From Falsiruegeria mediterranea M17 (GTDB lineage: Bacteria > Pseudomonadota > Alphaproteobacteria > Rhodobacterales > Rhodobacteraceae): DNA of 64,000 nt. Numbering within the stretch: position 1 is the stretch's first letter; the number at the start of each line of letters is the position of its first letter. Made by a program: the position numbers and the translations under genes. The notes under the pieces are model-generated. The model was given only the letters and a program-made list of their open reading frames with translations, did no database searches and was not told the DNA's origin. Where the stretch lies: the NCBI RefSeq assembly GCF_900302455.1, contig NZ_ONZG01000003.1, positions 372,001 to 436,000 of the forward strand. The letters are read 5' to 3'. Below are positions 32,322 to 52,371 of the stretch, piece after piece.

Positions 32322-33680
32322 CTACATCTGGGACAAGTTGTTGATCTGGTCCCAGTGATACCACAACAGCAGAGCAACGCCCGCGCTTGAAATGGCAATG
32401 GCTATGGCATCGTGGAGCGGGTCCCAGACGCGGTGCTTTACGCTCAACCAGACAAGGGCGGGGTAGGTGAAGATCATCGACAATCCCAGCCCGGCCATCG
32501 CGCCCAGCAGACCAAAGTTCAGAACACCAAAGATGATGCAAAGGGTCTGCGACGTGGCCTTGACCAAGCTCAGCACAAAGAATGACCGGCTGTCTCCGGC
32601 GGATAGGGCGGCGGCGTCATAGGTCATGATGATTGCTTGCGGGATCAGCGCACAAGCGATCAGGGTCACGATGGGGCCGGACAGGTGATAGCGATCATCA
32701 TAAAGGACATCGACCAGCCACGGGCCCGCAGCGGCCATGACCAGCAGCAGTCCAACAATCCCGCAAGTCATGGCGGCCCGCAGCAGCCTCTGCTTGCGCA
32801 GCATCGCCGGGTCCTCTTGTGCGGGGCGGTCACGATACACGGGGATCATGATCTTTGGCGAAACCGCGTGGCCCAGCATCGATGGGAAGCTGCCCAGAAA
32901 GAAGCCGATGTTGTAGAGCCCCAAGACCTCAAGCGTCAGGAAGCGGCCCAGGATCGCCCGGTCGCCTTGGCTGATCAGAAAGGCCAGGCCGGTGCTCAGG
33001 AAAATCCACTTGCCAAAATGCACGATTTCATAAGCGGCGGGTTTTTCCCAGCGGAACGTGTTGCGCGGGCCGGGCAAGCCGTAGTGCGTGAGCACCAGCT
33101 TGGCGACGGCCTGCACCACACCGCCCAGAACCAGGGCTAGAACCGAACCGGTGGCCATGGCAAACCAGATCATGAACCCTATTCCGATGACTTGGCTTGC
33201 CAGATCCAACAGCGTCAGCCGCCCCACCAGCAGATGCCGATTGGCGGTTTCGATCCGCGTCGGGTTGAATCCCGAAACTAGCAGCGCAACGGCTGCAATC
33301 GGCAAGTAGAGTTTCAAGTCCGGCTCACCATAGAACGCGGCCACAGGTCCGGCCAGGGCCCAGGCCAAACCAAACAGAAACACGCCCCGGATCACTTGAA
33401 TGGTCCAGGCCGTGTCCAGAAAATCGGGGTCATCCCCGCGTTTGTTCTGTGCGATGGACGGACCGATCCCAACGTCCGAGAACAGGTTCAAGCCCACAGT
33501 CACAACGCTGACCAGCGCCATCAGGCCAAAGGCTTCGGGAAATAGGATACGGGTCAGGATCAGGTTAGCCGCCAGCCGCAATGCCTGACTGCCGCCATAA
33601 CCGATGATCAACCACGAGGCGCTGCGCAGCACACGCGCCATCAGGCCGGACCCGGCAAAGGCTGATACCATCCTGTTCAT
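32322..33680 (-). CDS. Wzx-like lipid-linked oligosaccharide flippase
   Basis: A 452-aa polytopic membrane protein of the MOP/MATE exporter superfamily, with about 12-14 hydrophobic segments. Start: SASWLIIGYGGSQALRLAANLILTRIL, then PEAFGLMALVSVVTVGLNLFSDVGIG, the standard opening of polysaccharide flippases, followed by SIAQNKRGDDPDF. It should move lipid-linked repeat units to the periplasm. ATG 33680 has AGGA 8 bases upstream; the longer frame to 33749 lies in the divergent promoter region. It is divergent from the glycosyltransferase to the right. Confidence 0.88.
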   Translation of the reverse strand: MNRMVSAFAGSGLMARVLRSASWLIIGYGGSQALRLAANLILTRILFPEAFGLMALVSVVTVGLNLFSDVGIGPSIAQNKRGDDPDFLDTAWTIQVIRGVFLFGLAWALAGPVAAFYGEPDLKLYLPIAAVALLVSGFNPTRIETANRHLLVGRLTLLDLASQVIGIGFMIWFAMATGSVLALVLGGVVQAVAKLVLTHYGLPGPRNTFRWEKPAAYEIVHFGKWIFLSTGLAFLISQGDRAILGRFLTLEVLGLYNIGFFLGSFPSMLGHAVSPKIMIPVYRDRPAQEDPAMLRKQRLLRAAMTCGIVGLLLVMAAAGPWLVDVLYDDRYHLSGPIVTLIACALIPQAIIMTYDAAALSAGDSRSFFVLSLVKATSQTLCIIFGVLNFGLLGAMAGLGLSMIFTYPALVWLSVKHRVWDPLHDAIAIAISSAGVALLLWYHWDQINNLSQM

Positions 33681-33829
33681 CTTGTCCTGCAGCCCCCATG
33701 TCCCTGCAATTGGGGGGATAGTGCCTGTAGGTATTGGGGTACACAACAAAAACCGATTGTTTGACCCTGCTTTTCAGATTGCAGACAACAGGTTACGACT
33801 TGGATGACCCATATCTTCGGTGCCTCCTC

Positions 33830-35035
33830 GTGAAAATCGCCTATGTCCTGAACACCTATCCGCAACCCTCGCACAGCTTTATCCGGCGCGAGGTCCAGGC
33901 GTTGGAGCGGCAGGGTTTCGACATCACCCGCCTGGCCATGCGCCGCAGCGATTCCACCTTGGTCGATGCCCGAGATCAGGCCGAGGCAGAGAAAACCGGC
34001 TATGTTCTTGATCGCGGCGCGCTTGGCCTGCTTGGCGATGCGTTTAAGCAAACGCTTGGCGCCCCGATCAAGACGGCCAAGGGGCTGGCCATGGCTTGGC
34101 GTTTGGGCCGTGCCTCGCAAATCGGCATATTGCGGCACTTGATCTATCTGGCCGAGGCCGCGCATGTCGCGCAGCGGTGCCGGGCGGATGGTGTCGCACA
34201 TGTTCATGCCCATTTCGGAACCAATGCCGCAGCGGTGGCGATGCTGTCCCATGTGCTGGGTGGGCCGAGCTATTCCTTCACGGTTCATGGACCAGAAGAA
34301 TTTGATGCTCCGCACAGCCTGTCTTTGGGTGACAAACTGGATCATGCGGCATTTGCGGTCGGTGTTAGTTCGTTTGGTCGCAGTCAACTCTGCCGGTGGG
34401 CAAACTTTTCCACCTGGGACCGGCTGCATGTGGTCCATTGCGGGATCGAATCCGCGGCTTATGAAGCTTTTGCGCCTGTGCCGGACGGCCCGTTGCGATT
34501 GGTCGCCATTGGGCGATTTGTGGAACAAAAGGGACAGATGGTTTTGGTGCGTGCGCTGCGCCGACTGAAAGACACCCACCCGGACATGCAGCTGGCATTG
34601 CTTGGTGACGGCGAGATGCGCAACGATCTGGAACAGGCCGTGGCCCAGGCGGGACTTGTCGACATGGTGCGCTTCACCGGCTGGCTGGATCAGGACGGTG
34701 TGCGGGCCGAGATCGACGCGGCCCATGCGCTGGTGATGCCCAGCTTTGCCGAAGGCCTGCCCATGGTGATCATGGAGGCGATGGCCAACGCGCGCCCGGT
34801 GATTGCGACCTATATTGCTGGCACGCCCGAGTTGGTGCTTGATGGACAAACCGGATGGATTGTCCCCGCTGGCGATAACCAAGCGTTGGCCAATGCGATC
34901 GAAATGCTTGCAGAGACACCCACCGAAGATCTGAACCGCATGGGTGAAACCGCGCGTGCTCGGGTTCTACAACGTCACGACATCGACGATCAGGCCCGTA
35001 AGCTGGGCGATCTGTTTCGCGCGGCAGCGCGATGA
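33830..35035 (+). CDS. GT4-type glycosyltransferase (WcaL-like)
   Basis: A 401-aa retaining glycosyltransferase of the GT-B fold. The N-terminus KIAYVLNTYPQPSHSFIRRE is typical of colanic-acid WcaL-like enzymes. The nucleotide-sugar site is in the C-terminal half: IGRFVEQKGQMVLVRAL and the E-x7-E segment AEGLPMVIMEAMANARPVI. The start is a GTG; the ribosome site is weak and the frame extends 32 codons left, so the N-terminus is uncertain by a few residues. It should add one sugar to the lipid-linked repeat. It ends 1 base before the opposing GT2 stop. Confidence 0.87.
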   Translation: MKIAYVLNTYPQPSHSFIRREVQALERQGFDITRLAMRRSDSTLVDARDQAEAEKTGYVLDRGALGLLGDAFKQTLGAPIKTAKGLAMAWRLGRASQIGILRHLIYLAEAAHVAQRCRADGVAHVHAHFGTNAAAVAMLSHVLGGPSYSFTVHGPEEFDAPHSLSLGDKLDHAAFAVGVSSFGRSQLCRWANFSTWDRLHVVHCGIESAAYEAFAPVPDGPLRLVAIGRFVEQKGQMVLVRALRRLKDTHPDMQLALLGDGEMRNDLEQAVAQAGLVDMVRFTGWLDQDGVRAEIDAAHALVMPSFAEGLPMVIMEAMANARPVIATYIAGTPELVLDGQTGWIVPAGDNQALANAIEMLAETPTEDLNRMGETARARVLQRHDIDDQARKLGDLFRAAAR

Positions 35036-35881
35036 TCAGCGCCCGCGCACCCAATCCGATGTGGTGCGAAAGAGCGGGGTTTTGACCGCCAGGGCGACGG
35101 TGGCGTAAACCAAAAATCCCACCGGATGTCGCAGCATGCGTTGGAACAATCCGCTCACACCCATCGGCGCGTTGTCATCGTTGCACAACAGCTCGGGATA
35201 CAGCTTGGCAATCTGCGCGACGCCCTCATTCTGGCGTCTGCGCACCCGAACAAGGTTTCGAAACCCTTCGACCAGTGGCCAGTGGTATGCGGCCTCCACG
35301 CGAATGCGCTCGGCCGGGGCAAAGTTCAACCGGGCAAAGGTGTCGTCCGATATGATCTGCGACCAGTCCCCCCATCGCGCGCGCCCCGCTTGGTTCATGG
35401 CAAACACGCCAAATCCCGGAGAGCCCTGCGCCACAAAGGGAAGCGTCACCCAGAACCGCCCATAGGTGCGCGTGATCCAGCTGTGTCCCCTGGACACCAC
35501 TGGTGACCCGCCACCATAGGCAGGTTCGGGCCTGTCCAGTCCAGCGATCAACTGCGGCAAGAGCGCGGGGGACATGAGAACGTCGGCGTCCAGATAGACG
35601 CGTACGTCGCCCACGGCGGCGGTATCTCCGGCGTTCAACGCGCCGGGTTTGCTGCCTTGGTCCAACTCGATGACCCGCCATTCCCATCCGCGCGCCTCAG
35701 CGGCGCTGGTATGGGCGCTGGCCCGCGCGCCGGTGTCGTCGGAGCATCCGTTGGCCACGATGATCACCTGCGCTCGCCATCCGTCTGGCAAAGGATCGCT
35801 CTGCAACAATGCCCGGGCGCAGGCGTCGATATAATCCGCCTCGTTGTGTGCGGGCAGGATGATGCTGACGGTCCAGGTCAT
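35036..35881 (-). CDS. GT2 family glycosyltransferase
   Basis: A 281-aa inverting glycosyltransferase of the GT-A fold. TVSIILPAHNEADYIDACARAL opens the domain; the metal-binding D-x-D is in VRVYLDADVLM; QIISDDTFARLNF supplies the later acidic motif. A hydrophobic stretch near the C-terminus may touch the membrane. The start is set by an ATGA overlap with the SGNH-glycosidase gene upstream, so it is the last gene of that leftward operon. Donor and acceptor are unknown. Confidence 0.88.
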   Translation of the reverse strand: MTWTVSIILPAHNEADYIDACARALLQSDPLPDGWRAQVIIVANGCSDDTGARASAHTSAAEARGWEWRVIELDQGSKPGALNAGDTAAVGDVRVYLDADVLMSPALLPQLIAGLDRPEPAYGGGSPVVSRGHSWITRTYGRFWVTLPFVAQGSPGFGVFAMNQAGRARWGDWSQIISDDTFARLNFAPAERIRVEAAYHWPLVEGFRNLVRVRRRQNEGVAQIAKLYPELLCNDDNAPMGVSGLFQRMLRHPVGFLVYATVALAVKTPLFRTTSDWVRGR

Positions 35882-38436
35882 CGAAACGCTGACAACGCTT
35901 GCCACCGCGGGTTGTCATCGCTCAGGTGCCGCAGGTGGCCCCAGCTGCCCCATTTGTTGGGGCGATAAACATCTGCATAGGCGTTGAACAGTTTTCCGCC
36001 AAGTGCATGCCAGCCACGGATCAATTCGGTATACAGCGCGCCCATCTCTGGCGAATAGTTGAGATGGGTGAAAAAGGCGGTCAGTTCATCGTCGTCGACC
36101 ATCGGTCCGACGCCGACCACATGTGTGCCGCCTTCGTACATAATCAGATCCAGGCCATAGGTGTCGGCAATTTGGACGTGGTATGGCAGGCGTTCGGTCA
36201 GGTTGTGCGCCAGCGAGTCCTCTGCCTGACCGCTCACCAGCCCGTCGCGCAGTTCAACCCAGGCCAGTGCCGAGGCGGCGTCAAAGCGATGCTGCGTGAC
36301 GTACTCCTGCAATGCCTCACCACTCAAGCCCTCGGACTTGCCTTGCGCCGACGCCTGCGCCCGGCTTTCCGCCAGCCAGCCCTCGACCATGTCCCGGCGA
36401 TCCTCAAGCCCCAGAACACCGCCGAAATACCCGGTTACGGCATAGGCATCGAAATAGTCGGCAGGACGTTTGCGGCCGGGGTCGTCAGCAACCCAAGGCG
36501 GCGCTTCGAGGATCAGCTCCTCCAACCCGATCCAACCTGTTTGGGTGGAGATCACGCGCACCATCCGCTCGGTTGCCTGATCGCCATACACTTGCGCCCA
36601 GATTTGCGCCATTTCAGCCGCCCGCCCGCCATAGAAGGCGACCCAGTGGTCCTTTTTGTCCCAAGCCGCCAGAGCCTGCTCATCGGCCCAATTGGCCTGT
36701 TGAAACTGCCAGTTCCAGACCTCGTTGGAATATTCGACATAAGCCTTTTGATCGATCCAAAGCGTGTCACGAACATATTCGGCAAAGGTCCGCATGTAAT
36801 CGTCATCCGCCATATGGGGCATGTTGAACCACCCATCCGCGCCGGTGCGGTTGAGCAATTCGACCATCACCTCCAGCGGAACGCCGTGGCGGGCATAGGT
36901 ATAGTCGCTGGGGCGCGGTCGACCGTCCCAGTTGGATTGGGTCGAATTGTTCGTCTCCATCCAATCCATGAAACGCAGCACCTGAAACCCCTGCAGATGA
37001 TCCAACCACAGCGGGTTGAAGATCGCGCCCGCGTCATAAGCGGCCTCATGATCCAGCTTCACGACCGAGACGTTGCGGATGTAATCGCCGCCCAGATGGG
37101 TGCGTTGAATGCGGATGTCGACGGGGCCGGGGCCGGGTTCAAAGTCGAACTCGATCCGGTTCTTGCCATAGCGCACATTCTTGGCGCGGCCGCCGACCTC
37201 GACGATCCCTTTGCCCTGATAGCGCAACGCATAGCGCCCCGTTGTCGATACCGCATCAGGCGGCAAATCGGTCAGGATCAACGTCCCGATCGAACCCAAC
37301 TCGGGCGGGATTTCGACAGGCCAGCCATACTCGTCCAGATAGCCTGCGGCTTGCAGGTCATCATGCGAGGCGCCGCCAAATTGGCGCGGCAGATGGCCGA
37401 TCCAGGGGCGGGCGGTTTTCATTACGTCCAGAAACGGTTGTTGCACAGACCAGTCGTTGACACCCGCCAGCCCGATCGCCAGGGGCACACGGCCCTCGGG
37501 TTCGGGCGGCGAAGGAAACCCCTCTGGCAAGGGGACGGGATCCGTGGTCGTGTCGGTTGCCACAGGCGCCTCCGGCGCAGCCGGTGCAGGCGGGGTGTCC
37601 GCCTGTACCGGCTGCGCCGCCCCCGGCTTTGGACGAACGGCGTCATAGGCCGAGACTGCCTCAAACGCGATCTGTTGCAGCCGTTGAGCCAACGCAGGGT
37701 TCGGGGCCTTGAACGATCCGCCCCATTTGTCACGCAGCTTTCGCGGCAGACCTTCGGGGCTTTCGCCGGTGATGGCTGCGTATTGCACCATGGTCAGGAA
37801 ATAGAATCCCAGGTCGTTGGGGTGGATGGTGTCGGAAAACACATCGTCAATGCGCCCGATGCCAGGCACGGACCCTGCGGCAATTTCATCGGCAAGCCGC
37901 GCAATGGCCTGTCCGGCCGGGAGCAATTGCATGGGGGGCACTTCGGGCGCGCGGTCTGTGTTTACCGCTTCGACGATCCCTTCCCACACTGGCAGATCCT
38001 GTTCGATCCGCTGCAGCCAGGGGGTGCCGTCGCCCTCGTCATATTCGATGTCCACTCCGCTTCCCGAGCGCAGATCGTGCCAGGTCTCTTGCAAGAAAAC
38101 GCGCGTCTCGGGGTTGGCGCCGGTGGCGAGGTCAAAATACTTGCGGGCATAGCCTGCGCTGTCGTTGAACTCGATCTGATTGGCCAGCGGGATCGCCTCG
38201 GTCAGGATCACCACGTTGTAATCCCCGCCCGCCAATGCGCGGCGTGCGTTCAACCCCTCGCCCCGGTTCGCCTCGGTCCAGTTGTAGGACAGCGGTGCGC
38301 CGTTGATGATCTGATAATCCACCTGCGCCTGCGGCGCAGCGCGATCCAGCACCTGCGCCATCATTTGCGGGTTGGTGGGGCCGAACAGGCTGTGGCCGAC
38401 AAAGAACACGCCCATCAGGGTGGACAGCCAGCTCAT
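35878..38436 (-). CDS. SGNH-like hydrolase domain fused to a glycosidase-like domain
   Basis: An 852-aa protein with no close family I can name. Residues 1-260 repeat the fold of the next gene's product: VFFVGHSLFG with Ser16, and SDTIHPNDLGFY with Asp202 and His205, a plausible SGNH triad. A Pro/Ala/Thr linker spans 270-315. The remainder contains VEYSNEVWNWQF (Asn571-Glu572) and LIMYEGGTH (Glu768), an arrangement like the acid/base and nucleophile of clan GH-A glycosidases. It could de-esterify and cut the polysaccharide, but both assignments are inference. No clear signal peptide is seen. It overlaps both neighbours by 4 bases. Confidence 0.65.
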   Translation of the reverse strand: MSWLSTLMGVFFVGHSLFGPTNPQMMAQVLDRAAPQAQVDYQIINGAPLSYNWTEANRGEGLNARRALAGGDYNVVILTEAIPLANQIEFNDSAGYARKYFDLATGANPETRVFLQETWHDLRSGSGVDIEYDEGDGTPWLQRIEQDLPVWEGIVEAVNTDRAPEVPPMQLLPAGQAIARLADEIAAGSVPGIGRIDDVFSDTIHPNDLGFYFLTMVQYAAITGESPEGLPRKLRDKWGGSFKAPNPALAQRLQQIAFEAVSAYDAVRPKPGAAQPVQADTPPAPAAPEAPVATDTTTDPVPLPEGFPSPPEPEGRVPLAIGLAGVNDWSVQQPFLDVMKTARPWIGHLPRQFGGASHDDLQAAGYLDEYGWPVEIPPELGSIGTLILTDLPPDAVSTTGRYALRYQGKGIVEVGGRAKNVRYGKNRIEFDFEPGPGPVDIRIQRTHLGGDYIRNVSVVKLDHEAAYDAGAIFNPLWLDHLQGFQVLRFMDWMETNNSTQSNWDGRPRPSDYTYARHGVPLEVMVELLNRTGADGWFNMPHMADDDYMRTFAEYVRDTLWIDQKAYVEYSNEVWNWQFQQANWADEQALAAWDKKDHWVAFYGGRAAEMAQIWAQVYGDQATERMVRVISTQTGWIGLEELILEAPPWVADDPGRKRPADYFDAYAVTGYFGGVLGLEDRRDMVEGWLAESRAQASAQGKSEGLSGEALQEYVTQHRFDAASALAWVELRDGLVSGQAEDSLAHNLTERLPYHVQIADTYGLDLIMYEGGTHVVGVGPMVDDDELTAFFTHLNYSPEMGALYTELIRGWHALGGKLFNAYADVYRPNKWGSWGHLRHLSDDNPRWQALSAFR

Positions 38437-39380
38437 TGCGGCACCCCGGTCTTGGGATAGCTGGTGACCGTGTCCCAGACGACCTGTTGCATCAATCGCG
38501 CGGCTGCGTCAGAGGGCACCTGCGCAGGCGTTCCATTCGCCTTCATCAGCGTGTGCGGCAGGCCCACGGGCGATTTCTGATACAGCACTGCGTAATGCGT
38601 CAGCGCCACCAGATAGTTGCCCAGATCACCCATGTGGATCGGATCTAGCTTGCCCTCTGGATCAAGGCCAAACAAATCTTCGGGACCGTCGATGCCTTCG
38701 ACACCGCCTGCGTTGCGCATGGCGCGCATGAAATTCAACAGCACCTGCCCGGCGGGGATCACATGCACGGGCCGGTCGGGGTGACGCGCCAGATCCGCCA
38801 GCAGCAGGCGGTTTTCCCACAGGTCTGCCAGGTCCTGCTCCAACCGAACCTCCCAACCTTTGGGGTCGGTCAGCCAATGCCATGTTTCATAAAGGTAAAT
38901 CGGCGCGTCCGGCCTGCTCGCATGTGCAAGATCGGCCCACTGGCCAAGGTATTTCACACTGTCGTGGTATTTGATGGCATCGCTCAGCTCGACCATCTCG
39001 GTCAGCACCACAGCGTCATAGTCGCCCGAGCCGATGGCCTCTTTGGCGGCTCGAAAGACGCCCGGTTGGGCGTTGCTTTCGTCAAAGCCCAGGATCTCTA
39101 CATCCTCTTCCCAGTGGGCTTTCATCGGCGTGCCCCAGCCCAACTGACTGTTGTAGTCGTGCCCTTCGGGCGCCAGCTGCGCCAGCATCGCGGGCATGTC
39201 CTGATTGACCAGGCTGTGCCCCAGAAAGTAGACCTGCATCGGCCCATCAGGGGCAGGCACCGGCTTGGCATAGGTGGCAGTAACCATCTCGGGCGCGGGC
39301 AGGCGCGGTTTGAACCAGACCCACCAGGCGCCAGCGCCCAGAAGGATCACGACAAGCAGGATCAGCAGAACCAAACGCAT
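38433..39380 (-). CDS. Membrane-anchored SGNH-like hydrolase
   Basis: A 315-aa protein with an N-terminal anchor helix (LVLLILLVVILLGAGAWWVW) and a periplasmic domain. VYFLGHSLVNQDMP holds Ser56 and LDPIHMGDLGNYLVALTHY the Asp/His pair, a plausible SGNH-type triad. It aligns by eye with the N-terminal domain of the following gene product (shared GHSL, VVLTE, ETWH and IH...DLG segments), so the two are paralogues. O-acetyl removal or transfer on the polysaccharide is a reasonable guess. Its stop overlaps the next start (ATGA). A 61-base gap separates it from the phosphopantetheinyl transferase upstream. Confidence 0.68.
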   Translation of the reverse strand: MRLVLLILLVVILLGAGAWWVWFKPRLPAPEMVTATYAKPVPAPDGPMQVYFLGHSLVNQDMPAMLAQLAPEGHDYNSQLGWGTPMKAHWEEDVEILGFDESNAQPGVFRAAKEAIGSGDYDAVVLTEMVELSDAIKYHDSVKYLGQWADLAHASRPDAPIYLYETWHWLTDPKGWEVRLEQDLADLWENRLLLADLARHPDRPVHVIPAGQVLLNFMRAMRNAGGVEGIDGPEDLFGLDPEGKLDPIHMGDLGNYLVALTHYAVLYQKSPVGLPHTLMKANGTPAQVPSDAAARLMQQVVWDTVTSYPKTGVPQ

Positions 39381-39441: not shown

Positions 39442-40113
39442 TCACGCGCGAACTGCGACGGATGTCACGATCAACCCATCGCCACGGGCAATTTTGCCCG
39501 GGATTTGATCCCCTTGGGCAAAGGGCGGGACGGATCGGGTGAAACGCGCAACAAACTGTTTGTGATCGTCGCCGAGCTCGACTTCGAGTGTCTGAAAATC
39601 AAAGAGGGTCTGGCTGAGCGGATATTGCGCCTTATAGGCACATTCCTTGGCTGAAAAGATCGCCTTGGCGGCCTGACCGGGGTCAGGCTGCGTGTCCAGC
39701 CAGCGGCGTTCTGCCGAGGTGCAAACCGTGTCCAGCAGATCATCGGTCAGTGGCGTGTCTTCCTCGATGTCCAGTGCCAGCATCCGCACTTCGCCGGTCC
39801 AGGCGACGGCGGCCAGGCAGGCCGTATCGCAATGGGTGATCGTCCCGACAAGCGGGGCAGGCCAGATCGGGGCGCGGTCAGATCCCATCGGCACGGCCAG
39901 CGGTGGCGCGCCAAGTTCGGCCATTGCCTGTCGCGCCGCAACGCGGCCTGCCGAAAATTCCCGCAATCTTTTGGACACCGCGCCCGGGATTGCGGCCAGT
40001 TCTTCGTCATAGGCCGCGTGATCGCCGCGCGGATCCGTGGCGGACACGGCGATGACTGGATCCAGAAGCGCCCCGGCCAGCATCAAGGCGGTGGTGTGGT
40101 CGGCCTGGATCAT
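39442..40113 (-). CDS. 4'-phosphopantetheinyl transferase (Sfp/EntD type)
   Basis: Activates carrier proteins by attaching the phosphopantetheine arm from CoA to the conserved Ser. The 223 aa hold the family motifs in order: VGTITHC (P1-like), MLALDIEED (Mg-binding Asp/Glu) and IFSAKECAYKAQYP (W/F-S-x-K-E-x-x-x-K). It overlaps the NRPS stop by 4 bases, so it is almost surely dedicated to the carrier domains of the adjacent NRPS and PKS (Ser1465 and Ser1808). Confidence 0.93.
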   Translation of the reverse strand: MIQADHTTALMLAGALLDPVIAVSATDPRGDHAAYDEELAAIPGAVSKRLREFSAGRVAARQAMAELGAPPLAVPMGSDRAPIWPAPLVGTITHCDTACLAAVAWTGEVRMLALDIEEDTPLTDDLLDTVCTSAERRWLDTQPDPGQAAKAIFSAKECAYKAQYPLSQTLFDFQTLEVELGDDHKQFVARFTRSVPPFAQGDQIPGKIARGDGLIVTSVAVRA

Positions 40114-43100
40114 TGGGTTTTCATCCGCCGTCCGGCTCGCATCGCACGACGTTTGGACATGGTGTCCGCGCGGGCTGCCGTATCCTCGACCGGGGTCTCC
40201 TTGGTCGGTTTGTCGGCTTGGACATGCGTACTGAGCCCCGACAGGGTGGGGAAGCGAAAGATGTCGGTGATCGACAGGCGCGGCAGCTCCAGCGTTTCGC
40301 GGATTTCACGATGCGCCTGCACCGCAAGCAACGAATGCCCCCCAAGCGTAAAGAAGTTATCGTCCGCCCGGATGTCCGCCACACCCAGAATGCGCGACCA
40401 GATTGCGGCGATCCGGGTCTGGACGTCGCCACTTGCGGGTGCGCTGGTTGCAGCGGGCGTGGTGCTGCGCTGTGGCACCGGATCGGGCAACGCCTTGCGG
40501 TCGATTTTCTTGTTGGGCGTCAGCGGCAAGGCATCCAGTGTCATGATGTGCGTGGGCACCATCACCTCGGGCAAACGCTCGGCCAGATGGTCGCGCAGGG
40601 CAGCGTCCGAAACCGGCGCATCCGTGGTGATATAGCCCACCAGCTGCGTGTTGCCGCCGTGTTCGCGCGCGATGACCACGCTGGAGCGAACGCCAGCGAA
40701 ACCGGTCAGTGCGTTTTCGATCTCGCCCAGCTCGATCCGCTGGCCACGGATCTTGATCTGGTGATCGGCACGGCCCAGGAAATCCAACGTCCCATCCGCG
40801 CGCCACCGCACCATGTCGCCGGTGCGATACATCAACGGTGCGGCAGTGACGGTCAGCCCGGCCTCGGCCGCAAAGGGATCCAGCACAAACCGCTCGTCGG
40901 TCAGCTCGGAGCGTTGCCAATAGCCGCGCGTTACACCTTCGCCACCTATGAACAGCTCACCTGGCACACCGATGGGGCAGGGCGCACTCGTGGCGTCCAG
41001 AACATAGACCGAGGTGTTGGCAATCGGCGCGCCGATGTCGACGATTCCGGTGGCCTGTGCAGGGACCACGCGGCAGGTCGACCAGATCGTGGTTTCGGTC
41101 GGCCCGTACATGTTGAGGATCTGCGCCTTGGTGCAATGGCGCAGATCGTCCACCAGATCGCCCGGCAGCGCCTCTCCCCCCAGCAAAAGATGCTCGACCC
41201 GGCCAAGGGCCACGCGCGCCTCATCGTTCATGGCGATGATGCGGGCCATGGACGGGGTGCATTGCAGGTGAGTCACGTCGTGGCGAATGATCTGAGCGGC
41301 CAGGGAATAGTCATCCTCGGCCAGCGTGCTTGGTGCATTGGCGCGTTTGAGCACTTCGGCCAATGGCTTCAGCCCCTCCATGACCAGCGTGGGGTCAATG
41401 CCATAGTCTATCAGGCAAGCAACCTCATCCACGCCGATCCGCTTGAGGCTTTCGACACGCACCACGGCATCGTCGATGGTGCCGAACAGGCCGGAATCCT
41501 CGAAATACCGCTCGAACGCGAAATCCAGGATCGCCTCCAGTTCGTCCTCGGTCAGTTGCCCCAGATCCATCTCAAACGGGTTCGACACGCCTTTGGGTTT
41601 CTTGAAGGCAGGAAAGGCCCAGGCGTATTGCTTGATCAAAGCAGCAGCCGAGCGCAGGTAATCCTTCATCGGTTCGCGCGCGATGCGGGCGGCTTCTTCT
41701 CGTGTGTCAGCCAGATAGCTGTGCAGCATCAGCGTCACGCGATGCGCGTCCGGGTCATGTCCGGCCTCGCGCAGGGCCCCTCGATACAGGTGGATCTTTT
41801 CCGCCACCTCGTCGATGCTCTGCCCCAGAAGGTGGGTCAGCACATTGGCGCCGATGCGCCCGGCCTCGATCCAGGTTTCGGGGTTGCCTGCGGTGGTGAC
41901 CCAGACGGGCAGCTCATCCGACACCGGACGGGGTTGAGTGATGACCTCATGGGTGGAGCCGTCGGCCTTGGGGAAACCTACGGCCTCACCCCGCCAAAGT
42001 TTGCGCACGGTCTCGATCGCTTCGAACATCGCGGGTTTGTTCTGCGGAGGGGTGTTTTCAGGGCGCAAGATGAAATCATCCGGTTGCCAGCCCGAGGCAA
42101 AACCGATGGCCGCGCGGCCCCCGGTCAGGTTGTCGATCACGGCCCAATCTTCGGCAATCCTTGCCGGGTGATGCAGGGGGGCGACGCAGCTGCCTGCGCG
42201 CACCGACAGGTTCTTGGTCACCGCTGCCACTGCTGCCCCGGTCACGGCCGGGTTGGGGTAGGGGCCGCCAAAGGCGTGAAAATGCCGCTCGGGCGTCCAG
42301 ACCGCATTGAACCCATGAGCGTCAGCGAATTTGGCCCCCTCAAGCAGAAGCTCGTATTTCTTCGGCCCTGGCCCGTCGTCATTTCCCCAATACATCAGGT
42401 TGAAATCAATATGCCGGTCACTGCGCGCAATCGGTCCATTCGACACAACGGCGCGGTTTTCATTGCCGGTCAGCACCACCTTGAAGCCGCGCGCCAAGGT
42501 CCAGAACAGCTCAAGCACCGAGATGTCAAAGTTCAAGCTGGTGACCGCCAACCACACTGCGCCCGTCGAATGATCAATTCGATCATCCATCCCGGCAAAG
42601 AAATTGGCTACGTTGCGGTGCTCGACCATCACACCTTTGGGCGTCCCGGTGGAGCCGGAGGTGTAGATCAGATAGGCGAGGTCATCAGCCGTCGCGCCAC
42701 CATCCACGTCCTGCGCATTCGGGTCTGTCTCGACGGTGTCGATGCACAGTACATCAGCGTCAGAAGCGGGCAGGTTACTTGCCAGAGCGCTCTGGCTCAG
42801 CAGCACGCTGGCTTGACTGTCGGCGATGTAATGCGCGATCCGGTCTGCCGGATAGGCCGGGTCCAGCGGCACATATGCTCCGCCTGCCTTGAGGATCGCC
42901 AAAGCTCCTACAACCATGTCCAGCGAGCGGTCGGTGTACAGGCCAACATGCGCGCCGGGGCCAACCCCCATCGCCCGCAGACGCTCGGCCACGCTGTTGG
43001 CGCGGGTGTTGAGTTGGCCGTAGGAGAGCTGGTGATCTTCGATCACCAGGGCGATTGCCTCGGGGGTGCGGTTGACCTGCGCCTCGAACGCCTGGTGCAG

Positions 43101-44726
43101 GGTTTCGGTTCGGTCATAGTCGCGGGCGCTGCTGTTCCAGGTTGTCAGAACCTGCGCGCGTTCCGCCGCCGAAAGGATCGAGATATCAGCCAGCGTCGTG
43201 TCTTCGGTGGCTGCGCGCACGGCCTCCATCGCGGTTTCCAGCCGCTGCGCCAACAACTCGACACTGCGCGCGTCGACGGCTGTTCTGTCAATGTGCAAGG
43301 TGGCTTGGCCCTGGGACAGCGACACGGTGGCCAGCGTTCCGGGAACAGGACCTGCGCCGTCCAGAGACACAGCAATTTGTGGCAGGGCGAAGTTCTGAAT
43401 TTCGGGGTCACGCGCTGGCAGGTCCGAAGGGAACGCGCCAAGACCGTCCGCGGTCTCAGTCGCCTGTGCCAGCCGCTCTGCGAGGTTCGAAACGCTATTT
43501 TCAGCGCTCAATGTGAGCGGGACCCACGGCTCCACATAGTTCGGTGCCTTGGCTGCTGCCGATTGCAGCGTGTCACCGGTCAAGGCGACGGTGACCATTT
43601 CGGCGCCATCCCCTTGCTGCGCCCAATGGAGCGCGGCGACACCCGCGTAACGGACGTCGATGCCATGAGGCACGGCAATGCGCACCGCATCCCATTCACC
43701 ACTGGTCGTGTCCCCGGCCAGAGGCATCTGCACCGGTTGCATTTTTTGCAACGCGGGCCGCCAGTGCCGTTCAGCAGCAAGGGCGGCGCTGATTGCGCTT
43801 GTGCGTGCCTTTGATTGCTCGGGCGTTAGGTGGGAGAAGATGTCGCCAACAGCTGCGATCTCGGACGGTTGTAAAGGTGCGCCATGCGGGCTGCGCAAGT
43901 GGTCCAGCCGCAGATCGCCATCACCAGTGGCCACAATCAGACCGCCTGTGTCAAATTCCAACACCGTACCGGGCGCTTTGCCGCTGTTGGTGCCGGTGGG
44001 TATGGCTTGGCCAACCAGAACAGACCGGGTGCCCGTCTCGACACGGGGGCTGAGCAGCGGGTTCCAATATTCCCCGAAATGCAACGCCCGGACGCGGGCC
44101 GCGATCTGGGGTGCGGATTTTGTCAGGTCCAGCGCCCCGCCACCCTCGGGCCTGTCATCCCGAGCGAAATAGCGCCGGTCGGTGGTGTCTTGCGGCGTGG
44201 GGGTCAGCCCGGTTTCCAGTTGCGTCAGCACATCCGCAAAACTGTCGAGCGCGGCGGCGTAGCATTTGGAGTTCAGCGACAGTGCGGTTTCATCCTCAGC
44301 AATGTCGAACCCGGGCCGGGCCAGGATGTCGCCCGTGTCGATGCCGCTTTCGATCATGTGCCAGGTGACACCATATCGGGTTTCGCCGTTCAGCAGCGCC
44401 CAGACGGGCGTGTTCAGACCGGCATAGCGCGGCAGGGGACCATCGTGGAAGTTCACCGCCCCTTTGGCAGGCAGGGCCAGGATCTGATCCGAAATGATTT
44501 GAAGGTTTGCAATCGACAACAGCCAGTCAAAATCGCCCGGCTGAAACTGATCGGTCAAAGACAACAGCTCATCCGCTTGCGGCAGGCCTTTGCTGGCGGT
44601 CCAGGACTTGATCGTCGGGTCAGACGAGATCACGGCCTTGATCTGATGTCCCCGATCCAAGAGCGCATCTGCACATCCGATCAACAGGGATTCATTGCCG
44701 ATGATAACGCAGGAAAATCCAGTCAT
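40110..44726 (-). CDS. NRPS: formyltransferase - adenylation (with inserted luciferase-like monooxygenase) - carrier
   Basis: A 1538-aa synthetase. Residues 1-300 resemble methionyl-tRNA formyltransferase (Asn92/His94 in VNFHDGPLP, Asp130 in ESGIDTGDI). Residues 300-520 look like half a condensation domain without H-H-x-x-x-D-G. The adenylation domain runs from 530 to 1415 with LIYTSGSTGTPKG, FDISVLELFW, NMYGPTETT and YRTGDMVRW, but between FDIS (about 733) and the A5 region it is split by residues 772-1130. That insert is a flavin-dependent luciferase-like monooxygenase of the MupA/Atu3671 type (WTPERHFHAFGG; GRAAIGFASGWQPDDF). The carrier Ser1465 is in GGHSL. There is no thioesterase, so it should be an initiation module feeding the PKS. 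Overlaps of 4 bases tie it to both neighbours. Confidence 0.9.
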   Translation of the reverse strand: MTGFSCVIIGNESLLIGCADALLDRGHQIKAVISSDPTIKSWTASKGLPQADELLSLTDQFQPGDFDWLLSIANLQIISDQILALPAKGAVNFHDGPLPRYAGLNTPVWALLNGETRYGVTWHMIESGIDTGDILARPGFDIAEDETALSLNSKCYAAALDSFADVLTQLETGLTPTPQDTTDRRYFARDDRPEGGGALDLTKSAPQIAARVRALHFGEYWNPLLSPRVETGTRSVLVGQAIPTGTNSGKAPGTVLEFDTGGLIVATGDGDLRLDHLRSPHGAPLQPSEIAAVGDIFSHLTPEQSKARTSAISAALAAERHWRPALQKMQPVQMPLAGDTTSGEWDAVRIAVPHGIDVRYAGVAALHWAQQGDGAEMVTVALTGDTLQSAAAKAPNYVEPWVPLTLSAENSVSNLAERLAQATETADGLGAFPSDLPARDPEIQNFALPQIAVSLDGAGPVPGTLATVSLSQGQATLHIDRTAVDARSVELLAQRLETAMEAVRAATEDTTLADISILSAAERAQVLTTWNSSARDYDRTETLHQAFEAQVNRTPEAIALVIEDHQLSYGQLNTRANSVAERLRAMGVGPGAHVGLYTDRSLDMVVGALAILKAGGAYVPLDPAYPADRIAHYIADSQASVLLSQSALASNLPASDADVLCIDTVETDPNAQDVDGGATADDLAYLIYTSGSTGTPKGVMVEHRNVANFFAGMDDRIDHSTGAVWLAVTSLNFDISVLELFWTLARGFKVVLTGNENRAVVSNGPIARSDRHIDFNLMYWGNDDGPGPKKYELLLEGAKFADAHGFNAVWTPERHFHAFGGPYPNPAVTGAAVAAVTKNLSVRAGSCVAPLHHPARIAEDWAVIDNLTGGRAAIGFASGWQPDDFILRPENTPPQNKPAMFEAIETVRKLWRGEAVGFPKADGSTHEVITQPRPVSDELPVWVTTAGNPETWIEAGRIGANVLTHLLGQSIDEVAEKIHLYRGALREAGHDPDAHRVTLMLHSYLADTREEAARIAREPMKDYLRSAAALIKQYAWAFPAFKKPKGVSNPFEMDLGQLTEDELEAILDFAFERYFEDSGLFGTIDDAVVRVESLKRIGVDEVACLIDYGIDPTLVMEGLKPLAEVLKRANAPSTLAEDDYSLAAQIIRHDVTHLQCTPSMARIIAMNDEARVALGRVEHLLLGGEALPGDLVDDLRHCTKAQILNMYGPTETTIWSTCRVVPAQATGIVDIGAPIANTSVYVLDATSAPCPIGVPGELFIGGEGVTRGYWQRSELTDERFVLDPFAAEAGLTVTAAPLMYRTGDMVRWRADGTLDFLGRADHQIKIRGQRIELGEIENALTGFAGVRSSVVIAREHGGNTQLVGYITTDAPVSDAALRDHLAERLPEVMVPTHIMTLDALPLTPNKKIDRKALPDPVPQRSTTPAATSAPASGDVQTRIAAIWSRILGVADIRADDNFFTLGGHSLLAVQAHREIRETLELPRLSITDIFRFPTLSGLSTHVQADKPTKETPVEDTAARADTMSKRRAMRAGRRMKTQ

Positions 44727-45742
44727 TTGGGGTCCTCCAGAATGGAAACGGGGGCGGCGGGCACCGGGTGGGCAGGGCCGCGAAATGGGGTGGCTATGGC
44801 GTGCCAGATCAAGTCGATCAGAAACCGGTCGGGATCAGCTTGCGGCTTGCGCTGCACCAGCCTGCGCAGCCGCCAGAGCGTGCCAGCGGTGATCAGACCC
44901 AAGGTCGACAGGATCGTGTAGAAAACGCCGTGGTTCTTTGTGAAGTAGCGTATCCGGGAATCGAACCAATATTGCGGGGTCCGGCTCCAGGTCTTCATGC
45001 CTGTGCTCACCGAGCCGATGTGAACCACATGGCTGTCAGGCTGATAGTGCGTCGACCATCCGGCGCTGATGGCGCGGCGGCATAGATCGGTCTCTTCGAA
45101 ATAGAGAAAAAACTTTTCGTCAAACCCACCGGTGGCCTCGATCACTTCGCTTTTGATCATCAGGCTAGCCCCGGCGGTCCAGTCGACGCGGGAAATGGCC
45201 GTGGGTTGCGGCAGCGGCACGATGGAATCTTTGAGCAGGCGACTGATCACACCAGTCCGCGCTGCGGCCTCGAACTCTCCGGCGATCGAGGGAAAGCGAA
45301 AGGCGGTTGTATGGGTGACCCCATCGGGGCCCTTGATGTGGCTGCCGACCAGCCCCGCCGTAGGGGTGTCGCGCAAAAAGTCGCGCAGCAGGCGGATGGC
45401 ACCGGCTTCTGGCCAGGCATCCGAATTGAGCAGATAGTAGTAGTCCGGCACTTGGCCAGACGTCAGCCCGGCCCGCATGCCAAAGTTCATGCCCGCGCCA
45501 AACCCCCCGTTCCAGCCGCTTTGCAAGACGCGCAAGCGGTTGTCTTCGGTCCAACCCCTATCCAGCGCCGCCTGTTGCAGGATGTCGAATGAGCCGTCGC
45601 CAGAGGCGTTGTCGACCACCACGATCTCGCCGGTTATCCCTTCCATTTCGCGCATCGCGGCCTCGCAGGCCTTCAGCGTCAGATCGGGCGTGCGATAGTT
45701 CAGGATAATTGTGAGGACCGTGGGATCTGCCATGTTGTTCAC
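44723..45742 (-). CDS. GT2 family (rhamnosyltransferase-like) glycosyltransferase
   Basis: A 339-aa GT-A glycosyltransferase. VLTIILNYRTPDLTLKACEAAM opens it, VVVDNASGDGS binds the nucleotide, YLLNSDAWPE is the metal site and GASLMIKSEVIEATGGFDEKFFLYFEETDLCRRA the acceptor-side motif of rhamnosyltransferase-like enzymes. A hydrophobic stretch follows (VFYTILSTLGLITAGTLW). The start is GTG with a GTGA overlap with the PKS stop; an ATG three codons later is possible. Its place between PKS and NRPS genes suggests it glycosylates their product, which is inference. Confidence 0.87.
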   Translation of the reverse strand: MNNMADPTVLTIILNYRTPDLTLKACEAAMREMEGITGEIVVVDNASGDGSFDILQQAALDRGWTEDNRLRVLQSGWNGGFGAGMNFGMRAGLTSGQVPDYYYLLNSDAWPEAGAIRLLRDFLRDTPTAGLVGSHIKGPDGVTHTTAFRFPSIAGEFEAAARTGVISRLLKDSIVPLPQPTAISRVDWTAGASLMIKSEVIEATGGFDEKFFLYFEETDLCRRAISAGWSTHYQPDSHVVHIGSVSTGMKTWSRTPQYWFDSRIRYFTKNHGVFYTILSTLGLITAGTLWRLRRLVQRKPQADPDRFLIDLIWHAIATPFRGPAHPVPAAPVSILEDPK

Positions 45743-48700
45743 TCGGCAGCCGTTGCTTTGGGCCAGGTGACACCTGCGTCGGCCTGATCCAGATAGGTTC
45801 GCAGTCTTTCGGCCATAACCGAGACGTTCGGCACAAGGACCATGCTATCATGATCGCCCGGTACCTCGACCACCTCGATTTTTGGGGCCCATTTGCCCCA
45901 ATCGTTGTCGGCAAAGACGTACTCGCGTTCCGAGCTCACCCATTTGTTGCCGCTGACCTTCCAGTGTTTGTCGAGGGGGGGCCGGAACAGGGTCAATGGG
46001 CCGTCCCAAGGCTCGACTTCGTAGATCTTGATCGCGTCAAGAAACGCCAGCTCAACTTTCACATTGTTAAAGGCCGTTGCGACGTTTTCTTCCGGACGGG
46101 GGGCGTTGCGCTTGCGCACCTCCCATTCCCATCGTTTGCGGGCCCATTCGCTGAAATAGGCGGGGCCTTTGCGTTTGAATTCCTGTAGCTTGATCAGCGC
46201 CTTGTCGGTGCGGTTGAGGACCGGGCGCATGGGTTGCGGCGAGTCCAGAAGCGCCAGAACCGAGACCTCTTCTCCGGCCGCCTTGAGTTGCTGGGCCATC
46301 TCATAGGCTGTGATGCCGCCGCCGGAAAACCCGCTGAGCATGTAGGGGCCATGGGGCTGCACCTGCCGCAGCTCTTCGACATATGCGGTTGCGGCCTCGA
46401 CCAGATCATGATGGGGTTTCTCGTCCCCGATCAAGCCGCGCGCTTGCAGGCCATAGACGGGGCGGTCACGGCCGAGCATCAGCGCCAAGTGCCGCAAATT
46501 CAGGACGTTGCCGCCCATGCCGGCCACAAGGAAGAAGGGCCTTGCGGTTGTCTCGGCGCCCTGATGCAGTGGCACCAAATGTTTGAAGTCGGGTCCGTCA
46601 CTTTGCGATGAGGGGCCGTCCGGGGATGCAACATCGCCCACGCGGGCTGCGATCCGTTCTGCGATCCGGGCCACGCTTGGCGCTTCGAACAGGACCGAGA
46701 TGGGAAACTCGACCTGATAGGTCCGGTTGATCTGTGCAAACAGTCGCACGGCGATCAGGGAATGCCCGCCAAGGTCAAAGAAACTGTCCTGTGTACCGAC
46801 CTGACTGACGCCCAGAAGGGTTTCAAAGAACCCGGCCAGCGTCTTTTCGATCTCGCTTTCCGGCGCGACGTATTCGGTGTCCAGGTCCGGGCGTTCAAAG
46901 CTCTGGCTTTCGTCCGTCGATGTCTCTGACACTGCGTCGGCCTGCTGGATCAGCGCGGGCAGGTCCAGCGAGCTGAGGACCACCTGCGGGCGACCTGCCG
47001 CAATCGCGCGGCGCAGGGCTTGGGGACCTTCGTCGGCGCGAATACCTTGGGCAACCTGACGGTGCAGGCGCTGCTCTTCGGGTGACAGAGGTGTGTCCAT
47101 GCTGCGCGCGGTCAAGCCGAGATCAGCCGAGCTCGCATCAGCCGTCTCGGGGGCTTCAAGGCTCAGCGCCTCGGTAAGGCGCTTCATCTGAAAGCCCTCG
47201 ATCTCGGCGCAGACCGTGCCATGGGTGTCGAATAAGGTCACGTCGAATGAGGCAAAGCCGCCGATGGGCGTGGCCCCGGGCGACAGCCGGACCCAACTGC
47301 GCAAATCGGCAGGCAGCGGCGCATAAACCCGCAGGCTGCGGTATGAGACCGGCACCCAAAGCGCGTCGTTGTCATAGCCATCGATTAGCGAGATCGCCCA
47401 GCCGGTGGCCAGATCCATCAGACCGGGATGCAGCTGATACCCTTGCGCCAAGTCACTGCCATAGACATCCGGCAGCACCAGTCGCGCGACGCCTTCACCG
47501 TCGCCAAAGGCGGTGCTGCGGATCACATGCCAGCGGGGGCCAAAGTTCAGATGACGCTCTTGCGGCGATCGCAGCCGACCCTCGGCGGGGGCGGTTTCGG
47601 TTTTGGGGCAGCGGGCTGCGATGTCCGGCAGGGACACCGGGACAGGGGCCGTGGCATCCAGAAAGGCCAGCGTGGCCTGTGCGTTCAGGACATAACCGTC
47701 AGTGGCGGCGCTGTGCACGGTGAACCCGACGGCGTCTGCCTTTTGTTCCAACCGGACAACGATCTCGCGCGGTTGTCCCGGCTTCACCTCAAGTGGGCGG
47801 AAGAAGAATAGATCGCGGATCTCATATGGCACCTTGATCCCATGCGCCTTGAGCGCTTGGGCTGCCAATTCGATGTATCCGGTGCCAGGCATCAGCGCGG
47901 TGCCATCGCGGGTGCGGTGTTCGTCCAGAACCCAAGTGTCATCCAGTGACAGGGTCGAGACAAAGATCCGGTTGCCATCGGCGTCGAACCCCATCTCATC
48001 CAGCAACGGCGCGTCGATGGCCTCCCGCTCGGTCGGCTGTGTGCCGCCGGTGCGGGCCGACATGGCGTCGGCGGCCATGCCGACATCGGCCCAAACGCCC
48101 CAATTCACCGCAATCACCCGCGTCGCTGCATTGCGCCGCGACCGGGCCCAGGCGTTGAGGTATTCGTTGGCGGCCACATAGTCGACCTGACCCGCCGGGC
48201 GGGTGGCCGTACTGGACGAGGCAAAGAGCACCATCAGCTCGAGCATCCCGTCCGGAAACAGGGTGTTCAGCACCTGCAAGCCGTTGATCTTGGGGGCCAG
48301 AACCTGTTGGATTTCGGCCTCGCTCTTGGTGGCGATCAGGCCGTCGGCAATATGGCCTGCGGCATGTATCACACCATTCAAAGCACCAAATGCATCCTCG
48401 GCCTGTCGCACGGCGACACGCATCTGATCAATGTTGCAGACATCTGCCGCCAGAGCCACGACCTGCCCGGTTTCGATGGTTTGCAGGTCTTGCAGCGCAT
48501 TGATCCGGCGGGCAATTTGGTCGTTGGGACTGTGGCTGTGCAGGTAGTCGGCCCATTGATCCTGCGCGGGCAGATCCTCGCGCGACAACAGCACGATATT
48601 TGCCCCGTTGTTCCGCATCAGATCTGCGGCCAGTGTCAAACCGATGCCACCAAAGCCACCGGTAATCAAATAGGTGCCGCCGTCGGTGAACACCGGGCCT

Positions 48701-51700
48701 TCGGGCGCATCCAGCGGCAGGCGCTTGTAGCTTTGTCCAAACCGCTGATTGCCGCGCAGCGCGGCGATCGAGTTGCCCGGTTCCGCCAGCAGCTCTTCGA
48801 GAATGCGGTTGGTTAGGGTATCATCCCCCAAGGGCGAGGCTTTGCGTCCGCGCGACCAGAAACCCGCCGCCTCGACCTCGGGCAGATCGATGTCGACCGT
48901 GGCGCAAGTCACGCCGGGCATCTCATGCGGGATGACCCCGGCCGGGCCTGCGATGGTGGCTTTTTCGGGATAGGGCAGTTCCTCTCCACGCACCTGCGCG
49001 GCGCCCGAGGTGAAAACGGCAATGTGCAAAGCGTCAGGCAGTTCGACGCTGGTCATGGCTTGTGCCAAGGAGGTGAGGCTCAGGAAGCCCTGCTCCATGT
49101 TGCGGTCATAAAAGCTGTGCCCAGGGCGGAAGGTCTCGGACCGTGTCACCAGCCAGAAATGCCCGATCCGATCCGGCAGGCGGTCGGCCTCGGTCAGCTG
49201 ATGGAACAGGCTGTCAAAGCCGTGTCGCCCTTGCTCGGGCGGGACTTGGTACAGGTCGTCGCCCAGCTTGGCATAGGTGTCACCCGCGCGCACCCGCGTC
49301 ACGGAATGACCCGCCGCGGTCAGGCGGTCGATGGCTGAGGCGGCAACACCCTCGTCATCTTCGAAAATCAACCACTTCAGCGGCTGGGTTTCGTCAAGTT
49401 CACTCTCGACGTCCACATCGCATTCCGCCAGACGCGGACGCCACGCGGGACGCGAGCCCCAATCGGACAGATCATCCGAGCGTTTCAGTGCCGGAGTACT
49501 GACCCGCGCAGCCTTTGTGCCGGGTTCGATGAAATAGCGGCTGCGCTGGAACGCATAGGTGGGCAGTGGCAGGCGATGGCGCTTGGCCTCGCCCCAGATC
49601 TGTGCCCAGTCTGCCGCGACCCCGCAGGCCCAAAGACGGCCAATGACCTGCAAGAAATAGGCGTCATCGGCAATGTCCTGATCCGGGTGACGCAGCGAGC
49701 TGAGCACTTGCCCCGGCAAAACCCCATCGGCCATTTGCGTCAATGAGCTCAGCGCCTTGCCCGGACCGACCTCAAGGAACAGACGCGAGGGTTCGGCGGC
49801 CAGCGTGTCGATGCAATCGGCGAAATGCACGGTGTTGCGCAGTTGACCCACCCAATAGTCGGGGTCGGTCGCCTGCTCGGTCGTCAGCACCTGTCCAGTG
49901 CGGTTTGACAGCACTTGCATCTGTGGCGGGTTGAGTGTGATGCTTTGCAAAAATGCACGATAGTCGGCCAAAATCGGCTCTAGCATCCGCGAATGTGCCG
50001 CGATGTCGATGGCGATCCGCTGGTGATCGATGTCTTGCGCGAGCAGGGTTTCCGCCAATTTGTCCAACGCCTCTTGCGGTCCGCTGACGGCCGTCAGGCG
50101 TGGGGCGTTGACCGAGGCAATGTCCAGATCATCGCCCACCAGCGCCTCAACCTCGGCCAGCGGCAGCGAGATCGACAGCATCCCGCCCGCAGGCACCGTG
50201 TCAAACAAACGCCCGCGCAGCAGAACCAAGTCGATGCAATCCTCAAACGACATGACCCCGGCCAGGCAGGCGGCGGTGTTTTCGCCCATGGAATGACCGA
50301 CCAGTGCGGCCGGTTTGACGCCCCAGTCGATCCAAAGCTGTGCCAGAGCATATTCCACGATCATGATCAGCGGCAGCTGAACAGACGGCTGCGTCAGCTT
50401 GGCGTCGGCCTCGCCTGTGTCCTCTTCGGGCAGCCAGATGGCGCGAATGTCATAGTCGAGCTGCTTTTGCAGATGCTCCAGCCCGCGGTCCATCCAGTCG
50501 GCAAAGACCGGCTCGGTTTCATACAGGTCACGCGCCATGCCCGCATATTGTGCGCCACCGCCGGGGAACATGAACACCGTGTCGGGTGTGCCCGAGATAG
50601 CGTCATGGGTGAACACCTGACGGGGGTCATTTGCATCCAGAATCTCGGCGGCCTGCTCAGGCGTTTCAGCCACCAGAACACGGCGCTTATCAAAGGCACG
50701 TCGACCCTCTTTCAGGGTATAGGCCACATCCGCCAGATTGACATCGGGATTGGCGCGCAGATGCTCGGCCAACTGTTTGGCATTGGCATCCAGGGCAGAC
50801 CGTGAGCGGCCGGACAGGCAAAGGATGTGAAAGGGAAAGTCGCTCTCGTCCGAGGCACCCCGGTTGGGTGCTTGCTCGAGGATCGTGTGGGCATTGGTGC
50901 CCCCAACGCCAAGCGCGTTCACGGCGGCGCGGCGCGGGCCCTTGTGAGAAGTCCAGTCGTCCAGCCGATCATTGACCTTGAACGGGCTGGTCTCAAAATC
51001 GATGGCGGGGTTCGGGGCTTCATACCCCAGCGACGGGGGGATCTGTTCGTGATGCAGTCCAAGCGTGGCCTTGACCAGCCCGGCGATGCCGGCAGCCGTG
51101 TCCAGATGGCCGATGTTGGTCTTGACCGAGCCAACGCGGCAATAGCCGGTGTCGTCGGTCTGGACGCGATAAGCCTCGGTCAGGGCCGAGATTTCGATGG
51201 GATCGCCCAGATAGGTACCGGTGCCGTGGCATTCGACATAATCGATGGTCTCGGGCGTCACCTGCGCGTCCTTCAACGCGGCGCTCACAGCGGCGGCCTG
51301 ACCGTCAACGCTCGGAGCGAGGTAACCCGCCTTGGCCGCGCCATCGTTGTTCACGGCTGATCCCTTGATCACCGCCCAAATGTGGTCGCCATCGGCTTGC
51401 GCATCCTCAAGTCGCCGCAGCGCCACCGCGCCCGAGCCTGAGCCGAACACGGTGCCCTGCGCCCGGTGGTCGAAGGCGTGGCAGTGGCCGTCCGGCGACA
51501 GGATTTCGTTTTCCTTGTAGAGATATCCGCGCCCTTGCGGCAGTTCGATGGTGACACCGCCCGCAAGCGCCATATCGACCTCGCCATCGCGCAGCGCCTT
51601 GCTGGCATAGTGGATGGCCACAAGAGAGGTAGAACAGGCGGTCTGGATGTTGATCGACGGCCCTTTCAGGTCGAAGACGTGACTGACACGGGTGGACAGG

Positions 51701-52182: not shown

Positions 52183-52371
52183 AGTCTGACCAAACGATCC
52201 CAAGTTCGTTCACATCAGCCCACTCACCCTTGGGCAAAGTACCCCAGGCACTTACAGGCCGAAAGCATTCAATTTTATCTATTCTCCCGCCAAGAGCCTA
52301 TCGCACTGATAACGTGCCACAAAGCATTTCAAGTGTATCGCACGACGCCCGATAACAGCAGAACAGTTCCC

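Follow-up and report, generated by a model that had tools for sequence, protein, structure and literature searches.

A formyltransferase-bearing, probably glycine-activating module with an inserted monooxygenase in a predicted exopolysaccharide locus of Falsiruegeria mediterranea

The window analyzed here, 64,000 nucleotides of Falsiruegeria mediterranea M17 (contig NZ_ONZG01000003.1, positions 372,001 to 436,000), encodes a nonribosomal peptide synthetase (NRPS) of 1538 amino acids in one open reading frame (ORF; 40110..44726, on the (-) strand, as are all features below unless marked (+)). According to Pfam, TIGR04020, motifs, and substrate code, the protein combines a formyltransferase (FT), half of a condensation domain, a predicted glycine adenylation (A) domain with a luciferase-like monooxygenase (LLM) inserted between motifs A4 and A5, and a peptidyl carrier protein (PCP). 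We propose, with a probability of about 0.5, that this NRPS and a neighboring polyketide synthase (PKS) form a two-module assembly line that would make an N-formyl-α-hydroxyglycine-derived C4 acyl unit for exopolysaccharide (EPS), a scheme whose chemistry and attachment we infer. The setting, with the NRPS, a family-2 glycosyltransferase (GT2), a complete PKS, and a 4'-phosphopantetheinyl transferase (PPTase) inside a putative Wzx-type EPS locus, looks new.

Architecture of the interrupted module

The FT domain (residues 1-300; 43827..44726) was placed by Pfam (Formyl_trans_N 58-157, Formyl_trans_C 198-291) and alignment, in line with the first-pass annotation of this DNA, and N92, H94, and D130, which we take to be its catalytic residues, are kept in 110/111 aligned rows. 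Behind it, predicted structure places the C-terminal lobe of a condensation domain (residues 330-530; 43137..43739), the only lobe that superposes; Pfam gives no Condensation match at E<=0.01 in the 1538-residue protein, and HHxxxDG is absent from all 111 rows. The A domain follows in two parts, located by Pfam, motifs, and predicted structure, the first with motifs A1-A4 (residues 536-755; 42462..43121) and the second with A5-A10 (residues 1131-1415; 40482..41336), AMP-binding being matched in two stretches (best 547-757) and AMP-binding_C at 1335-1407. Between them lies the LLM or monooxygenase (MOX) insert (residues 772-1130; 41337..42413; Bac_luciferase 788-1100). The carrier protein (residues 1437-1502; 40221..40418), found by Pfam (PP-binding 1438-1502) and alignment, comes last, with Ser1465 kept in 110/111 rows.

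The insertion point proposed in the annotation was recovered, with A4 (FDISVLELFW) at 733-742 and A5 (NMYGPTE) at 1205-1211. TIGR04020 covers residues 775-1125 with model positions 1-340 of 341, with a score of 478.4 bits (cut-off 244.45), and being above this curated cut-off the insert is predicted to be a flavin mononucleotide-dependent oxygenase of the MupA/Atu3671 family, the type assigned to it beforehand. Its nearest solved sequence is 6ket (346 bits by sequence; TM 0.88 of target length), from PuwE of a hybrid PKS-NRPS, which has the LLM fold in common with the insert and was solved as an isolated 362-residue chain. Structure prediction, which the annotation had suggested as a check, gives a model in which the A-domain fold is unbroken and both it and the LLM fold are intact.

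The catalytic motifs of the protein are conserved in the alignment. Moreover, the dN/dS of the LLM insert against two close relatives titled Tropicibacter is 0.003 and 0.018, the lowest among the domains compared, and the NRPS is matched in 160/390 genomes of the order, with the best E printed as 0 in each. Therefore, the interrupted protein is neither an assembly artefact nor a chance feature. However, a monooxygenase inserted at the same place, between a4 and a5, is described for the glycine modules of the myxothiazol and melithiazol synthetases (PMC10204066). The A4-A5 insertion being already in print, the architecture is less new than the annotation implied; what holds of its initiation-type module is the union of FT and monooxygenase in one protein.

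Substrate, oxidized atom, and related modules

The ten-residue code of the A domain, read by alignment with positions set by motif under a numbering that we presume to apply, is DILQLGMIWK, and either this code or DILQMGMIWK is found in 97/111 rows. Among 117 interrupted rows drawn from loci L036-L154, some of them counted twice (for example, L125 and L141), 116 have DILQxGM(I/V)W and the remaining one DMVQLGMVW. The code also agrees in 19 proteins read singly, including those from Streptomyces, Nostoc, Burkholderia, and Deinococcus, and among the uninterrupted A domains, of which there are only four, one has a code of this type. In PMC12283262, four A domains that activate glycine and contain a monooxygenase are described as all having DILQLGMIWK. 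The code check proposed in the annotation thus returned a published glycine code, and since the code of the window is identical to it, the substrate is probably glycine. Glycine has no β carbon, so the β-hydroxylation entertained at first falls away. Also, the oxidized atom, which had been held to be unpredictable, can be narrowed down: the glycine code and the myxothiazol and melithiazol precedent would make the α carbon the likeliest site.

A Pfam scan for Condensation took in four FT-bearing A(LLM) proteins (those of the window, L141, L142, and L151, with the FT-bearing L116-L119 and L143-L145 outside it) and found a match in none of the four. A(LLM) proteins without FT gave a match in 7/8; in L153 it consists of two stretches, only the downstream one placed, and an annotated condensation-protein gene lies just upstream. 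The eighth, from Deinococcus, has neither domain, and its FT is a separate adjoining gene. This mutually exclusive pattern among the scanned proteins suggests that the monooxygenase would need an N-acylated glycyl thioester, supplied by a condensation domain in midchain and by the formyl group at the start. On a plasmid of Deinococcus actinosclerus (L120), a separate FT gene is followed by A(LLM)-T and a PKS, near polysaccharide genes and a GNAT/FemAB-like protein.

The window protein has the order of an F-A-PCP initiation module, an FT with N, H, and D followed by A and PCP, as in LgrA of linear gramicidin, whose chains are its top PDB sequence matches, with a score that sums two A domains. 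However, FT and A domain are joined directly in the LgrA type; in LgrA the A domain begins at about residue 205, too early for a half condensation lobe to fit in before it, and a monooxygenase insert is presumably lacking; the window protein has the half lobe and an A domain interrupted by the LLM. For the myxothiazol and melithiazol modules, we assume the gene names MtaG and MelG. By their published description (PMC10204066), they share with the window protein the insertion site, the glycine substrate, and a flavin monooxygenase, although they take a peptide and end the chain, whereas the window protein is an FT-bearing starter with only a half condensation lobe in place of their complete peptide-accepting upstream domain, and it stands in an EPS locus with a PKS after it. 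Module 4 of SolF (solanimycin) also pairs a glycine A domain with a flavin monooxygenase and is tied to the α-hydroxyglycine of solanimycin B, but there the insert lies between a8 and a9 and the module is in midchain (PMC10204066).

The exopolysaccharide locus and its distribution

The first-pass annotation, confined to the single protein, had missed the half condensation lobe, the coupled glycosyltransferase, the PKS, and the polysaccharide setting. The GT2 gene (44723..45742) overlaps each of its neighbors by 4 bases and joins the NRPS to a complete type I PKS of 2154 residues (KS-AT-KR-DH-ACP-TE; 45739..52203), whose checked active-site residues, including Ser, Asp, and His of the thioesterase (TE), are kept in 75/75 rows. 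On the other side, the PPTase gene (39442..40113) overlaps the NRPS by 4 bases and is followed by an SGNH-fold protein, esterase or acyltransferase, with an N-terminal hydrophobic helix (38433..39380; GHS at 54-56 and D246/H249 invariant across 44 rows), and by an 852-residue protein (35878..38436) whose SGNH-like N-terminal part is 33% identical to the 315-residue SGNH protein and whose C-terminal residues, about 550, have no Pfam or PDB sequence match.

Beyond these lie a second family-2 glycosyltransferase (35036..35905), an EpsE-like GT4 glycosyltransferase under the EpsE model cut-off (33734..35035, (+)), a Wzx-like flippase (Polysacc_synt_3; 32322..33749), a Wzz-like chain-length determinant (30957..32318, (+)), a BY-kinase-like ATPase under the models' cut-offs (30011..30913, (+)), and an undecaprenyl-phosphate sugar transferase (Bac_transf; 29183..29953, (+)). 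Upstream of the PKS is a Wzy/O-antigen-ligase-like membrane protein (52447..53910) with a weak Wzy_C match (E 5.3e-4, 20.2 bits against a cut-off of 31.7). Flippase, chain-length protein, and initiating sugar transferase are all above the Pfam gathering score, and by sequence the region is identified as a Wzx-type EPS locus holding the NRPS, GT2, PKS, and PPTase. The same locus has an ORF of 702 residues (54861-56969, (-)) that fuses a Gfo/Idh/MocA oxidoreductase (6-195) and an NAD-dependent epimerase (374-599).

Of the matches listed for the order, those from other genera have 53-70% identity, in nearly every case across almost the full length. The NRPS is found in 7/385 genomes of the class sample, two of them outside the family of the window, and in 16/398 of the phylum sample, six of them outside it, two of which (G1057, G1025) are condensation-type proteins. 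In the order sample, GT2 at E<=1e-60 is present in 159/160 NRPS-positive against 0/230 NRPS-negative genomes, a difference for which kinship inflates any p-value. Loci L006-L115 comprise 30 of the 160 matching order genomes and the best 80 of at least 579 relatives, with L006 the window's own copy and some species possibly in both sets. The 80 named loci kept are mostly from Rhodobacteraceae or roseobacters, four being titled Hydrogenophaga and one Nocardioides. Both Hydrogenophaga LLMs placed in the tree fall among Rhodobacterales, which suggests transfer of these copies, and NRPS copies are plasmid-borne in Parasedimentitalea, Ruegeria, and Paracoccus. In the 74 loci of at least 20 kb, PKS and GT2 are found in 74, PPTase in 72, at least one EPS homologue in 72, and Wzx or Wzy in 65; the survey used the in-frame start closest to the preceding stop, which biases it to short distances. 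Polysaccharide genes occur in other arrangements in Aminobacter, Paracoccus, Ruegeria, Deinococcus, L143, and L144, and for FT-less A(LLM) proteins in Streptomyces, Nostoc, and Burkholderia plasmids, no polysaccharide gene appears among the annotated features listed, the gene table being incomplete.

Three of these relatives have features of their own. Hydrogenophaga pseudoflava has an extra NRPS of 2001 residues (L071:18900-24905), flanked by the NRPS/PPTase on one side and the SGNH gene on the other. It comprises two stretches of AMP-binding, a Condensation domain, two carrier domains, and a TE, and one A domain in it has an uninterrupted glycine-type code, DILQLGMVW. The contig titled Nocardioides marinus (L050) carries a syntenic, 61% identical Rhodobacterales-type locus and is probably mislabelled or from a mixed assembly. 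Upstream of the PKS-GT-NRPS operon on a Ruegeria conchae plasmid are a VPLPA-CTERM exosortase XrtD and genes for dTDP-rhamnose (L152:1146-2798).

Two roseobacters have been reported to carry orphan PKS/NRPS genes: Phaeobacter inhibens T5 has Inhi_1972 and Inhi_1974, and Tritonibacter mobilis AK171 has T1PKS and NRPS-like clusters unlike known ones; the accessible text of these reports states no link to EPS. Since homologues of the window's genes occur in other Phaeobacter and in T. mobilis NBRC101030, and the Inhi_1972 and Inhi_1974 tags leave space for one gene between them, these are probably the same genes as the PKS and NRPS of the window.

Proposed assembly line and its alternatives

In the proposed pathway, the A domain would load glycine, the substrate indicated by the code, onto its own PCP, and the FT, judging from its fold and motifs, would formylate the amine to N-formyl-glycyl-S-PCP. 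Then, as MtaG/MelG and the glycine code suggest, the LLM would hydroxylate the α carbon, with the formyl group as the N-acyl cap, a role that in the elongation versions belongs to the upstream condensation domain. The KS-AT-KR-DH-ACP-TE module would add one C2 unit, reduce, dehydrate, and release or transfer a C4 acyl unit of the 4-formamido-4-hydroxybut-2-enoyl type, for which extender unit, dehydration, and geometry are putative. Finally, synteny and co-occurrence suggest that GT2, possibly with the SGNH protein, may attach the acyl unit to one of the sugars in the polysaccharide.

Several observations weigh against this pathway or toward other products. The DH motif of the PKS is one residue longer than the textbook spacing, and no flavin reductase was found among the window ORFs scanned, although the Streptomyces and Burkholderia relatives have one nearby. 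In glycine, only the nitrogen or the α carbon is available, and the pairing of an FT with an N-oxygenase is known from formyl-hydroxamate siderophores, so the LLM could instead oxidize the nitrogen and the FT cap it, giving an N-formyl-N-hydroxyglycine hydroxamate that would bind metal as part of a polymer or of a small molecule. This is very improbable: the scanned ORFs of the window include no siderophore receptor family, and the glycine-module monooxygenases of PMC10204066 and PMC12283262 act at carbon. In MtaG and MelG, with the same A4-A5 insertion site, the α-hydroxylated glycine is cleaved (PMC10204066), and the MOX domain in glycine domains of identical code is also said to cleave glycine (PMC12283262). 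The discussion of the latter source places all its MOX modules in glycine domains and names the step β-hydroxylation, impossible on glycine, and its introduction puts such inserts between A8 and A9, which likewise disagrees with our reading. If cleavage took place here, the LLM would hydroxylate N-formylglycyl-S-PCP, the carbinolamide would break down into a glyoxylyl thioester and formamide, and extension of the thioester by the PKS would give a 4-oxobut-2-enoyl (aldehyde) unit, a possible polysaccharide crosslinker. We regard this as unlikely, because the product of MtaG/MelG is the amide and their glyoxylyl thioester is hydrolyzed, whereas here the thioester side would have to pass on, and because solanimycin B retains its α-hydroxyglycine (PMC10204066).

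The destination of the product is a separate matter. That the NRPS-PKS pair makes a freely diffusing metabolite and merely shares the locus with EPS genes would fit the conserved TE that ends the PKS, as well as the TolC-family gene that adjoins the PKS in Aminobacter, which would also suit a secreted product. Moreover, homologues of the EPS genes in the window are missing from 2/74 long loci; when 10 ORFs of these two were scanned with Pfam, one locus gave ManC-type and acyltransferase genes and the other gave GT4 and LicD. L141, L142, and L145 have FT-A(LLM)-T and a PKS, and for each of them the two flanking ORFs that were scanned yielded no EPS family, and the L151 protein adjoins nitrous-oxide-reductase genes, so the FT-A(LLM)-T type can exist without a recognized EPS locus. 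A condensation-type A(LLM) protein, L146, adjoins a PKS homologue too, so the PKS need not go with formylation, and common descent inflates the synteny and co-occurrence counts. A free metabolite nevertheless appears rather unlikely, given how closely GT2 tracks the NRPS, the EPS homologues in nearly all long loci, and no exporter besides the EPS machinery among the window ORFs scanned. Also, the NRPS-PKS unit might bridge or crosslink EPS in roseobacters and some other bacteria, a doubtful extension in which the LLM would make an N-formyl hemiaminal on carrier-bound glycine, GT2 would glycosylate its hydroxyl to an N,O-acetal, and the TE would esterify the other end to a second sugar. No description of such an assembly-line link in a polysaccharide was found in the titles and abstract openings of the open-license papers listed by literature searches on this point.

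The interrupted A domain is of a known kind. Its form as an FT-bearing starter, which in EPS loci is coupled to a PKS and to a glycosyltransferase of its own, looks new. Formylation together with glycine oxidation in a starter suggests how a peptidyl-glycine enzyme could act at the start of a chain. Roseobacter PKS-NRPS genes have been noted in the literature, as far as the accessible text goes, as present without a product. The constant GT2 and the mostly EPS company turn these orphans into a testable hypothesis of an acyl-decorated or acyl-linked polysaccharide, and if the polymer truly carries the product, this would amount to something larger. Since roseobacters often live as attached cells on surfaces and algae, the composition of their exopolysaccharide is relevant to adhesion and biofilms.
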